A DNA stretch of 64,000 bases, taken from contig CANLSF010000001.1 in the NCBI GenBank assembly GCA_947493695.1, positions 558,001 through 622,000 of the forward strand, given 5' to 3'. Each line of letters opens with the position of its first letter. The first letter of the stretch is position 1. A model generated the notes under the pieces. The model made no database searches. It was not told where the DNA came from and saw only the letters and a list, made by a program, of their open reading frames with translations. The DNA is from an uncultured Kiloniellaceae bacterium. GTDB lineage: Bacteria; Pseudomonadota; Alphaproteobacteria; Kiloniellales; Kiloniellaceae. The translations under genes were made by a program, and so were the position numbers. Below, piece after piece: positions 28,111-35,813 of this stretch.

Positions 28111-28229
28111 TGTCTGTAATGCAGTGAAAAGTGGAAGATCGCGTGAAAAACGCCCTTGTGCGACCGGATATAGACACGACTGTGGCAAGATCGCTTGCCG
28201 CCATCGCTTTTATCGCGTCTGATAACGCC

Positions 28230-28826
28230 ATGACGCAGGAGCCAAAAGCGAGAGAACCCAAGCGGTTGGAGCCTTTGACACCGCCTGAATTGGTGGTGCT
28301 GGTTCAGTCAATCGCGGAACGGAGGTGTAAAGCCTCGTTCCAGGAGCTCTTTGGCTATTTCGCGCCCCGTGTTAAGGCCTATCTGATGCGGCTCGGTTCG
28401 GACATGCATCAGGCGGAAGAGCTTGTGCAGGAAGCCATGATCATGGTCTGGCGGAAAGCACCAAGTTTCGATCCGGGTCAGGCGGCGGTCAGTACATGGA
28501 TTTTTACCATTGCCCGGAACAAACGGATCGACGCGATCCGGCGTGAAAAACGCCCGGAGATCGATCTGGAGGACCCGGCCCTCGTCCCGCAACCCGAAGC
28601 ACTTGCAGACGGAGTGGTCGAACAACAGCAACACGCTAGACGGCTGAAAGAAGCAATCAGCCGTCTTTCCGAAGAGCAGGCAAAGTTGATACAGATGGCA
28701 TATTTCGCAGATAAGGCGCATGGCGCCATTGCCGAGGAGACCGGATTACCTCTGGGCACGGTCAAATCGCGCTTGCGTCTGGCACTAGGCCACCTTCGCA
28801 AGGAACTGAAGGAGGACGTGCTATGA
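28230..28826 (+). CDS. rpoE: ECF sigma factor, RpoE (ChrR-controlled, ECF11-like)
   Basis: Extracytoplasmic-function sigma factor that recruits RNA polymerase to stress promoters; in Rhodobacter the orthologue drives the singlet-oxygen response. Region 2 includes FQELFGYFAPRVKAYLMRLG, AEELVQEAMIMVWRKA and FDPGQAAVSTWIFTIARNK. Region 4 includes LSEEQAKLIQMAYF and LPLGTVKSRLRLALGHLRK. The ATG at 28230 gives 198 aa, the normal size; a GTG at 28131 in the same frame would add 33 non-conserved residues, and neither has a good ribosome binding site. The stop overlaps the chrR start (ATGA), so sigma and anti-sigma are translationally coupled. Confidence 0.92.
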   Translation: MTQEPKAREPKRLEPLTPPELVVLVQSIAERRCKASFQELFGYFAPRVKAYLMRLGSDMHQAEELVQEAMIMVWRKAPSFDPGQAAVSTWIFTIARNKRIDAIRREKRPEIDLEDPALVPQPEALADGVVEQQQHARRLKEAISRLSEEQAKLIQMAYFADKAHGAIAEETGLPLGTVKSRLRLALGHLRKELKEDVL

Positions 28827-29545
28827 CCTTGCCTTCCAGCCATAGCCACGGCGGCACCGGAAGTCCGCTTCCGACAAACCACATCAGTGACGAGCTGCTT
28901 ACTGCCTATGCAGCAGGTACTCTGTCGGAAGCCGAGTCCCTGATTGTCGCAACCCACTCGGCCTTCTGCCCGCTGTGCAGAGACGCGATCGCGGAATTCG
29001 AGGCAATCGGCGCCACCTTCATGGACGAGCTGGAACCAGAAGAAATGGCTGCGGGTTCTCTGGATTTCGTAATGTCCAAGCTCGACGACGATGAAGCCTG
29101 GCCCGAGAATGTCGTGCAGCATCCCAGCGCCCAGACAAAAGCCGAAAATCTGGATAGTGACGTCATCCTGCCTGAACCGCTGCGCAGCTACGTCGGTGGC
29201 GATCTGAAGGATGTTGTCTGGCGTCCTGTCATCCGTGGGCTTGAGGAGGCCGAGCTCTCCGTCTCAAGTCCGGATTATAACGTTCGGCTGATCCGGGTTG
29301 CTGCTGGCGCCGCCATGCCGCAACACAGTCACCAGGGGTTGGAATACACCCTGCTGCTGACCGGCGCTTATCGGGACAGCTCGGGCCGCTTTGCCCGCGG
29401 TGACGTGCAGATTGCCGACGGCGATGTTGACCATCAGCCGACGGCCGAACCGGGCGAACCCTGTGTCTGCTTGATCGTGACCGATGCGCCGATCAAGCTG
29501 ACCGGCCCTCTGGGACGGCTGCTCAATCCCTTTATTACCTACTGA
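28823..29545 (+). CDS. chrR: ChrR-type zinc anti-sigma factor
   Basis: Cytoplasmic anti-sigma factor that holds RpoE inactive until stress. 240 aa in two domains. The N-terminal zinc anti-sigma domain has H20, H45, C49 and C52, and the 25-residue H-H distance equals that of H6/H31 in Rhodobacter ChrR. The C-terminal cupin domain has H168, H170, E174 and H204, exactly the spacing of the H141/H143/E147/H177 zinc site of Rhodobacter ChrR. The cupin is the part needed for the singlet-oxygen signal there. Four-base overlap with the sigma gene; convergent with the TrmH-like gene. Confidence 0.94.
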   Translation: MTLPSSHSHGGTGSPLPTNHISDELLTAYAAGTLSEAESLIVATHSAFCPLCRDAIAEFEAIGATFMDELEPEEMAAGSLDFVMSKLDDDEAWPENVVQHPSAQTKAENLDSDVILPEPLRSYVGGDLKDVVWRPVIRGLEEAELSVSSPDYNVRLIRVAAGAAMPQHSHQGLEYTLLLTGAYRDSSGRFARGDVQIADGDVDHQPTAEPGEPCVCLIVTDAPIKLTGPLGRLLNPFITY

Positions 29546-34237: not shown

Positions 34238-34852
34238 TCAATTTGGCTTAGGGCCGCCCGTCGTTTCCTTTTGCCTTTGCCGGAATGTCTGCTTTTTTAC
34301 CCGGTTACCGCAGCGGTTCATGGAGCACCAGCGGCGTTTGCCGGGACGCGAGCCGTCGATAAAAAGCACCGTACACTCGGGCGCTGCGCATTCACGGATC
34401 CGGCCAATCAGATCGCCCGCCATGAGCTCCACGGTGTCTCTGGCGACTGAAGCCAGAACCGCTTCCAACGGAACCTCTGCCCGCCAGATCAGGCTCTGGC
34501 CATTGGCTGCCAATTCCGGGATGAGCGCCGGACGCGCTGCCCAGCCGTTCAGCACATCCAGGTCCTTCTGTTCAAGACTTCGCTTTGACCGCGCCGCCTG
34601 AACCAGCCGGTAGGTAACCTCCCGCAGGTCTCGTGCCTCTGCGAGTTCCACCTCACTGACTTCGGGCGGCTTGGTCAGCAAACCGGCTTCCACGCACCAG
34701 CGCCCGAGATCTTCCGGTCTCCGCCAACGCTCGATGTCGTCCTGCCGCCAGCCCCCCATACTTGCGACCGCATTCAGACAGAGACGTCCTGAATCAAATC
34801 GGAACGTGAGATCCGACGGGTCGATGCCGGTTGGTGGAGAGATTTCATTCAT
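34238..34852 (-). CDS. CGNR zinc-finger (ABATE-domain) transcriptional regulator
   Basis: 204 aa protein with the two-part architecture of CGNR regulators. The N-terminal ABATE domain begins FRFDSGRLCLNAVASMGG. The C-terminal zinc finger has ECAAPECTVLFIDGS, then RRWCSMNRCGNRVKKQ, with four cysteines as CX4C...CX4C. CGNR proteins are DNA-binding regulators, usually of a neighbouring enzyme gene. The divergent neighbour is a haloacetate-dehalogenase-like gene, and two palindromes lie between them, the first touching this gene's start codon. That start has essentially no leader free of the palindrome, implying tight autoregulation or a leaderless message (inference). Confidence 0.87.
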   Translation of the reverse strand: MNEISPPTGIDPSDLTFRFDSGRLCLNAVASMGGWRQDDIERWRRPEDLGRWCVEAGLLTKPPEVSEVELAEARDLREVTYRLVQAARSKRSLEQKDLDVLNGWAARPALIPELAANGQSLIWRAEVPLEAVLASVARDTVELMAGDLIGRIRECAAPECTVLFIDGSRPGKRRWCSMNRCGNRVKKQTFRQRQKETTGGPKPN

Positions 34853-34875
34853 GGAACTTGTATAACTGGTTCCAT
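34851..34875. promoter_or_regulatory. Palindromic operator 1 (CGNR/dehalogenase intergenic region)
   Basis: ATGGAAC and GTTCCAT arms around a TATAAC-containing centre. The inner 21 bp (34853-34873) are identical to operator 2 at 17 of 21 positions. It overlaps the start codon of the CGNR gene (34850-34852). A likely site for the CGNR regulator itself. Confidence 0.7.
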
Positions 34876-34879
34876 CATG

Positions 34880-34918
34880 TTACGCAATGGAACCGTTATA
34901 ACCGGTTCCATTGCGTAA
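34880..34918. promoter_or_regulatory. Palindromic operator 2 with perfect 15-bp arms
   Basis: Arms TTACGCAATGGAACC (34880-34894) and GGTTCCATTGCGTAA (34904-34918) around a 9-bp centre GTTATAACC. It lies 16 bp before the dehalogenase start codon, next to its GAGGAG ribosome binding site, so occupancy would block dehalogenase transcription. Centre-to-centre distance to operator 1 is 36 bp. Confidence 0.75.
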
Positions 34919-34934
34919 TTGAGGAGATATCAGG

Positions 34935-35813
34935 ATGTTCGAGGGCTTCGAAAACCGGCAGGCTCCGGTCGGTAACTGCGTGATCAACCTCTTGGTGGGC
35001 GGCGAGGGTCCGCCGCTGCTGTTGCTGCACGGCTACCCTCAGACCCACGTCGCCTGGCACGCAGTTGCGCCAACCCTGGCGAAGCGCTTCACCTTGATCA
35101 TTCCCGATCTGCCCGGATACGGCGACAGCGTGGGTCCGGAGCCCGACCCGGCGCACCTGAACTACGCCAAGCGCACCACGGCGAAGACACTGGTGGACCT
35201 GATGATCACGCTGGGGCACGAACGCTTTTCGCTCGCAGGGCATGACCGTGGCGGACGCGTGGCCTATCGGATGGCCCTGGATCACCCGGAGCGCATCGAG
35301 CGCGTAGCGGTGCTCGACATCATCCCGACCCTCGATACCTGGGAGACCATGGATTGGGAGCAGGCGCTCAAAACCTACCACTGGCCGTTTCTTGCGCAAC
35401 CAGTGCCCTTGCCCGAGCGCATAATTGCACAGGATCCGGACTTTTATATCCAGCATCTGCTTGATCGCTGGATTCTGGATGGAAACAGCCTTGCGCCTGA
35501 AGCGGCAGCCCACTACCGCCGTCAATTCCATAAGGCCTCGGTCGTCGCCGCCACCTGTGCCGACTACCGCGCGGGTGCAAGTCAGGATGTCGTCCACGAC
35601 AGGGAAGACCGTGCAGCGGGCAGGCGCATTTCCTGCCCGCTTCTGGTCGTCTGGGGGCAGGGATACTCTCTTACTATAGAAAAGAGTCCGGCAGAGACCT
35701 GGCGTACGTGGGCGGGCGAGGTTTCCGAGGTCGCGCTGGACTGCGGTCACTTTGTCACGGAAGAGCAGCCTGACGCCTGCGCTGAAGCACTGTCTGTGTT
35801 CTTCTCGGGTTAG
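34935..35813 (+). CDS. Fluoroacetate/haloacetate dehalogenase-like alpha/beta hydrolase
   Basis: Predicted to displace halide from 2-haloacetates (fluoroacetate) by attack of an active-site aspartate. 292 aa alpha/beta hydrolase. All residues of the Rhodopseudomonas fluoroacetate dehalogenase active site align: nucleophile D104 with carboxylate-binding R105 and R108 in AGHDRGGRV, halide-pocket H149 and W150 (TYHWPFLAQP) and Y211 (DYRAGA), and catalytic H272 (CGHFVTEEQP). HGYPQ forms the oxyanion region. A GAGGAG site lies 8 bases before the ATG. It is divergent from a CGNR regulator with two shared palindromes. The last 18 codons are echoed 604 bp downstream. Defluorination versus other haloacid activity cannot be told from sequence. 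Confidence 0.86.
   Translation: MFEGFENRQAPVGNCVINLLVGGEGPPLLLLHGYPQTHVAWHAVAPTLAKRFTLIIPDLPGYGDSVGPEPDPAHLNYAKRTTAKTLVDLMITLGHERFSLAGHDRGGRVAYRMALDHPERIERVAVLDIIPTLDTWETMDWEQALKTYHWPFLAQPVPLPERIIAQDPDFYIQHLLDRWILDGNSLAPEAAAHYRRQFHKASVVAATCADYRAGASQDVVHDREDRAAGRRISCPLLVVWGQGYSLTIEKSPAETWRTWAGEVSEVALDCGHFVTEEQPDACAEALSVFFSG
35758..35782 (+). repeat. 25-bp direct repeat, copy 1 (inside hydrolase 3' end)
   Basis: The segment starting CGGAAGAGCAGCCTGACG (35758-35782) is repeated exactly at 36362-36386. In this copy it encodes EEQPDACA near the end of the dehalogenase-like protein. Confidence 0.9.

Follow-up and report, generated by a model that had tools for sequence, protein, structure and literature searches.

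A CGNR zinc-finger regulator divergent from a fluoroacetate-dehalogenase-like hydrolase: a candidate ligand-released switch and an inverted half-site recurring beside CGNR genes

Which protein acts on the two palindromes that separate a CGNR zinc-finger regulator gene from a dehalogenase-like hydrolase gene, and to what signal does it answer? In the window (the whole 64-kb stretch of DNA analyzed), translation and Pfam searches confirmed both ORFs of the first-pass annotation: the gene of an ABATE-CGNR regulator (34238..34852, minus strand; 204 aa, with the ATG at 34850-34852 predicted to be leaderless) diverges from that of a fluoroacetate-dehalogenase-like (FAcD-like) alpha/beta-hydrolase (34935..35813, plus strand; 292 aa, Abhydrolase_1). 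The spacer between them is 82 bp long, not 83 bp as that annotation had it, and contains the palindromes it had reported at 34851-34875 and 34880-34918, which agree at 21 of 25 positions, or 17 of 21 when the core alone is considered, and belong to the type GGAAC-N11-GTTCC rather than N10. The core of candidate operator 1, GGAACTTGTATAACTGGTTCC (34853..34873), abuts the regulator start codon, in agreement with the earlier description of one palindrome touching it. The core of candidate operator 2, GGAACCGTTATAACCGGTTCC (34889..34909), lies 36 bp from the first and is extended in the window to perfect 16-bp arms at 34880-34918, where arms of 15 bp had been claimed and arms of 15-16 bp were found. 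Across the 64 kb, operator 2 is the sole perfect inverted repeat with arms of at least 15 and a loop of 3-12; perfect arms of 12 occur at three places in the real window vs none in five shuffled windows, and the window has no second pair of similar palindromes under the criteria used. In the source genome, the two operators were the only matches to GGAACYNNTWTAACYGGTTCC with fewer than three mismatches, the pattern itself having been drawn from such sites; a wider regulon was thus not detected at this threshold, and two other sites appeared at three mismatches (20 with the reversed control pattern). The extra perfect arms of operator 2, TTACGCAA/TTGCGTAA (34880-34918), occur also in the genome G001, with a matched change. 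Elsewhere in the window (28131-29545), judging from the translations, an ORF for an ECF-type sigma factor is followed by one for a cupin protein resembling ChrR-type anti-sigma factors.

The regulator consists of an ABATE domain (PF07336, residues 22-146, 34415..34789, minus strand; E 9e-21), presumed to bind the ligand, followed by a CGNR zinc finger (zf-CGNR, PF11706, residues 151-194, 34271..34402, minus strand; E 1e-18), presumed to bind DNA, both scoring above the curated Pfam cut-offs, which places the protein in the ABATE-CGNR family. The CGNR motif occupies residues 181-184, and the zinc-binding cysteines C155, C160, C176 and C181 are invariant in seven aligned sequences. A structure model built from seven sequences (mean pLDDT 71, residues 1-40 below 50), which represents the fold of a monomer free of ligand, matched only 3h0n (Jann_2411), with E 8e-6 and TM 0.53-0.58. 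This founding ABATE-CGNR protein, whose structure has been in print since 2009, shares both domains and the fold with the window protein, while its finger motif is CQNR instead of CGNR; it was described as probably dimeric, its zinc finger as presumably DNA-binding and its ligand as unknown, and the available portions of that report give neither operator, ligand nor target gene (PMC2954205), whereas the present analysis proposes both for the window protein, an operator as well as a partner gene. No operator of the CGNR family is reported in the titles and abstract openings searched, among which subscription journals are thinly covered, so that prior work may exist; the fluoroacetate dehalogenase literature, at the same level of titles and abstract openings, does not mention a CGNR regulator.

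By sequence, the hydrolase comes closest, among proteins of solved structure, to fluoroacetate dehalogenases (3r3u and other PDB entries; E 2e-91). It aligns with them over its full length and appears to share their catalytic Asp-Asp-His set, two arginines and His/Trp/Tyr pocket: the alpha/beta-hydrolase fold is accompanied by D104, D128 and H272, and R105, R108, H149, W150 and Y211 are retained, so that D128 adds to the seven conserved residues that had been listed previously. We take R105 and R108 to be the carboxylate-binding arginines and H149, W150 and Y211 to form the halide pocket.

The arrangement is preserved in related genomes. Relatives of the CGNR protein with at least 50% identity were found in G001 (Pelagibius sp. 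Alg239-R121, 68%), G002 (62%), G003 (Denitrobaculum tricleocarpae, 62%), G684 (51%) and G187 (Dongia mobilis, 50%), and in four of these five (G001, G002, G003 and G187) the gene diverges, as in the window, from a hydrolase gene whose product is 58-80% identical. The first-pass annotation had named orthologous loci devoid of the palindromes as evidence that would count against its proposal; both palindromes are present in all four. In G684, no FAcD match was found within 11 kb around the CGNR gene, the locus of which bears a GGAACC-N9-GGTTCC site. A more distant pair in G399 (39% CGNR divergent from 45% hydrolase), located in a different gene setting, has the variant palindromes GGCACTAGTATAACTGGTTCC and GGCACCATTTAAACCGGTGCC, again 36 bp apart; the window, G001 and G002 each have an aminotransferase gene of opposite orientation past the hydrolase. 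Divergent FAcD-CGNR pairs thus number six (window, G001, G002, G003, G187 and G399), with operators 36 bp apart in five of them and 35 bp apart in G187.

Promoter-like sequences recur between the genes of the five loci with GGAAC palindromes. On the regulator strand (minus), a predicted -35 element, TTGCGT (34882..34887), and a predicted -10 element, TATACA (34859..34864), which lies inside operator 1 and 6 nt before the ATG, follow the layout TTGnnT-17-TAwACA found in 5/5 loci, from which a leaderless regulator transcript is predicted. On the hydrolase strand (plus), the predicted elements are TTGTAT (-35, 34858..34863, inside operator 1) and TACGCA (-10, 34881..34886, between the operators), the latter a weak match to the consensus, and TTGTwT-17-TAnnCA is likewise present in all five. 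Each predicted -35 overlaps or touches the -10 of the opposite promoter. This pattern, including the 17-bp spacer, was fixed after reading the loci by eye; a strict sigma-70 scan of the window spacer gave no promoter, and the pattern was not found in G399.

Taking these features together, we consider it quite probable, on the strength of sequence comparison, that the ABATE-CGNR protein would work as a dimer that represses both its own gene and the divergent hydrolase gene until a ligand releases it. Within the dimer, each zinc finger would read one GGAACC/TAACC half-site; bound at operator 1, the protein would cover the -10 and the leaderless start of the regulator promoter together with the hydrolase -35, resulting in autorepression, and at operator 2 it would cover the hydrolase transcription start. 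A small molecule handled by the hydrolase would bind to the ABATE domain, upon which the repressor would leave and both genes would be made. In TetR- and MarR-type autorepressor pairs, too, the regulator diverges from an enzyme gene and palindromes overlap both promoters, as at the window locus; those regulators, however, employ a helix-turn-helix, whereas CGNR would read DNA by a treble-clef zinc finger, with half-sites at one- or two-turn spacing. That CGNR activates the hydrolase from operator 1 and represses only itself appears unlikely: the overlap of operator 1 with the predicted hydrolase -35 and the weakness of the predicted -10 (TAnnCA) would fit an activator, but operator 2 coincides with the predicted start of hydrolase transcription, and a protein bound there would be an obstacle, and operator 1 would be centred near -30, an unusual position for activation.

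The repressor model presupposes that the palindromes belong to CGNR. They could instead serve a different regulator, or operator 2 could function at the RNA level, as a hairpin within the leader of the hydrolase transcript, since its extra arms (TTACGCAA in the window, with the matched change in G001) would form a hairpin if transcribed. These arms are, however, missing from G002, G003 and G187, and an inverted half-site, AACC-Nk-GGTT, follows CGNR genes across taxa and kinds of partner gene, so we regard either option as very improbable; most likely, judging from these comparisons, the palindromes are CGNR operators.

The survey of this half-site covered 106 different CGNR genes whose upstream DNA was usable (99 + 7), collected with the zf-CGNR model and protein searches; sites were counted between -220 and +40 relative to the start chosen for each gene. 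Two loci were left out, L054 because a contig end truncates it and L014 because its frame is broken; 8 matches in one list (contig ends or weak) and 18 in another were not fetched, and plasmid records taken amounted to 22 in all. The palindrome search beside other CGNR genes that the first-pass annotation had suggested thus turned up AACC-Nk-GGTT near 63 of 106: k = 8 in 26 loci, 9 in 14, 18 in 13 and 19 in 14 (8/9 in 40/106 and 18/19 in 26/106), whereas any other k in the range 2-21 was seen in 0-2 loci. Clustering at 50% identity left 32 of 56 clusters with any of the four spacings. Control sets of four spacings gave 3, 0, 3 and 0 loci of 106; with k = 28-30 the count was 6, and with k = 38-41 it was 3. 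AACC-N0-GGTT was frequent too (14 loci), which we interpret as the central portion of certain sites. Near the starts, 90 sites were counted in 27,509 bp vs 17 in the other 393,040 bp of these loci; by spacing, sites upstream and in the rest numbered 36 and 0 (k = 8), 20 and 5 (k = 9), 18 and 3 (k = 18), and 16 and 9 (k = 19). The motif is absent from 43 of the 106 loci.

The AACC half-site had been chosen after inspecting the first set of loci. When all 256 four-base half-sites were ranked at 20 spacings, AACC with k = 8 came first by loci, followed by TAAC with k = 20 and 10; when clusters were counted, AACC k = 8 drew level with TAAC k = 20 at 12, and GC-rich half-sites reached 10. The latter are equally common elsewhere, CGGC k = 3 occurring 14 times upstream vs 133 times in the 14-fold larger rest. 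The AACC count replaced a test of five-base arms with an 11-bp spacer (51/88 loci; shuffle mean 27.6), which was dropped because it includes conserved coding sequence (five CGCCA sites).

Two held-out sets were examined in addition. Among 16 loci drawn from the class that includes G601 and the order that includes G625, in the phylum of the window (the partial matches L195-L197, L212 and L214 having been excluded before counting), ten bore the motif with k = 8, 9, 18 or 19, including all six hydrolase-facing loci, and every other k from 0 to 40 was found in 0-1 of 16. The plasmid set yielded the strict motif in one of 16 loci (L192) and the relaxed form GGAAC-N11-GTTCC in two more (L185 and L188); of the 13 without it, eight are from Streptomyces with nearly the same finger. 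In five Streptomyces plasmid loci lacking the motif (L183, L186, L187, L189 and L190), the CGNR gene is annotated directly behind an ABC-F ATPase gene. In general, AACC-Nk-GGTT tracks CGNR genes in the class of the window, in genomes of the same phylum, in Streptomyces and in Amycolatopsis, next to several kinds of partner gene. Given its occurrence at 63 of 106 loci vs 0-3 in the control sets, and the held-out sets, it seems that a single half-site, spaced by one or two helical turns, is read by much of the CGNR family; the long spacing class exceeds the short one by one helical turn, as would be expected of a two-headed dimer on one face of the DNA.

The base preceding AACC in the half-sites goes with the residue that follows the invariant K186 of the finger. 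This residue is K187 in the window (codon at 34292..34294, minus strand), located inside the predicted helix 178-198 of the structure model; K accompanies GGAACC, V accompanies GTAACC and G accompanies AAACC. By half-site counts, K is found with G in 15/16, V with T in 23/28, A with T or C in 63/66 and G with A in 2/2, and the plasmid loci L185, L188 and L192 agree with the rule. Because K at this position changes just once on the CGNR tree, we treat the rule, and K187 as the base-choosing residue, as a hypothesis.

What, then, is the signal? Divergent ORFs of at least 120 aa were present in 87 of 99 loci and belonged to Abhydrolase_6 in 27 of the 87, to AzlC in 11, Glyoxalase in 8, BPD_transp_2 in 6 and EamA in 5. 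CGNR genes hence often diverge from alpha/beta-hydrolases; among 97 downstream ORFs, no alpha/beta-hydrolase family appeared in the best 25 of 93 families (each with two or more members, so that up to two hydrolases may have escaped), these ORFs having been chosen by length on either strand, a sampling unlike that of the divergent ones. A home-made profile collected 26 CGNR-paired hydrolases. Hydrolase pairing is spread over the CGNR tree with nine changes, at least six of them forced by well-supported branches, and 19 of the 26 pairs have a site with one of the four spacings. An aspartate aligns at the nucleophile position in all 26, and an aspartate nucleophile is a mark of the dehalogenase/epoxide-hydrolase branch; R105, R108, H149 and W150 are confined to the six FAcD pairs. 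A second CGNR gene in the source genome (L016) and in G003 (L114) faces another Asp-nucleophile hydrolase, with two AACC-N19-GGTT sites each. Twelve further divergent ORFs are related to one another (L001, L017, L064, L067, L073, L075, L077, L080, L082, L083, L088 and L092), presumably the 11 AzlC matches plus one; their CGNR genes bear AACC-N8-GGTT in 12/12 cases, 0-15 bp from the start in eight.

Because of the active site of the window hydrolase, our leading guess for the ligand is a small carboxylic acid activated by a halogen or in some other way. The narrower proposal, that the switch senses haloacids of the fluoro- and chloroacetate class and that the hydrolase is a true haloacid dehalogenase, draws on the solved fluoroacetate dehalogenases being its nearest relatives, on the eight checked active-site residues being kept in 6/6 FAcD-CGNR pairs, and on the nucleophile aspartate common to the 26 paired hydrolases. 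We nevertheless find it doubtful. Identical residues occur in the FAcD-like genes L035-L038, the fetched loci of which contain no CGNR match; the source genome has three further FAcD-like genes, of which L038 keeps every checked residue, while in L046 the pocket reads Y/F/F. Many genes partnered with CGNR are of other kinds than hydrolases (AzlC, glyoxalase and transport genes), and no fluoride riboswitch was detected at the Rfam gathering threshold in the five sources scanned (the window, L048, L049, L129 and L130). The Dongia hydrolase gene, moreover, overlaps a cupin gene of the DMSP lyase family (PF16867), whose product matches a solved DMSP lyase with E 5e-6. Of the switch originally proposed, the regulatory half is strongly supported, the pair and both palindromes being kept in orthologous loci and the half-site standing beside more than half of the surveyed CGNR genes (though beside few in the plasmid set), while for the haloacid half the indirect signs are mixed.

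In the Dongia mobilis locus (L130:3113-5581), the FAcD-like and cupin genes are followed by an arginine-deiminase-like gene, all three on one strand behind the CGNR operators; PF16867 genes are present in all six pair genomes, away from the pair in the other five. A link to fluoroacetate via Streptantibioticus cattleyicolor, a producer of this compound, was considered and set aside: its megaplasmid encodes a CGNR protein of 45% identity, but neither a FAcD match within 12.5 kb nor a site of the tested type was found.

For the family as a whole, we tentatively put forward, as a reading about evenly poised and if anything short of probable, that ABATE-CGNR proteins may use one operator code, an inverted (T/G)AACC at one- or two-turn spacing (k = 8/9 or 18/19), in which the residue after the invariant lysine (K187 in the window) would pick the base before AACC, and that many of them may guard Asp-nucleophile hydrolases against reactive compounds (small acids, halides or epoxides). 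If so, the ABATE domain would represent a new sensor class for such compounds. The motif itself supplies concrete DNA targets for dozens of CGNR regulators, with their partner genes pointing to ligands, and K187 is a named residue for probing base choice. The window locus, which combines two sites and a single enzyme in a switch of 82 bp, would provide a clean test case and, should the signal be a haloacid, a ready biosensor part.
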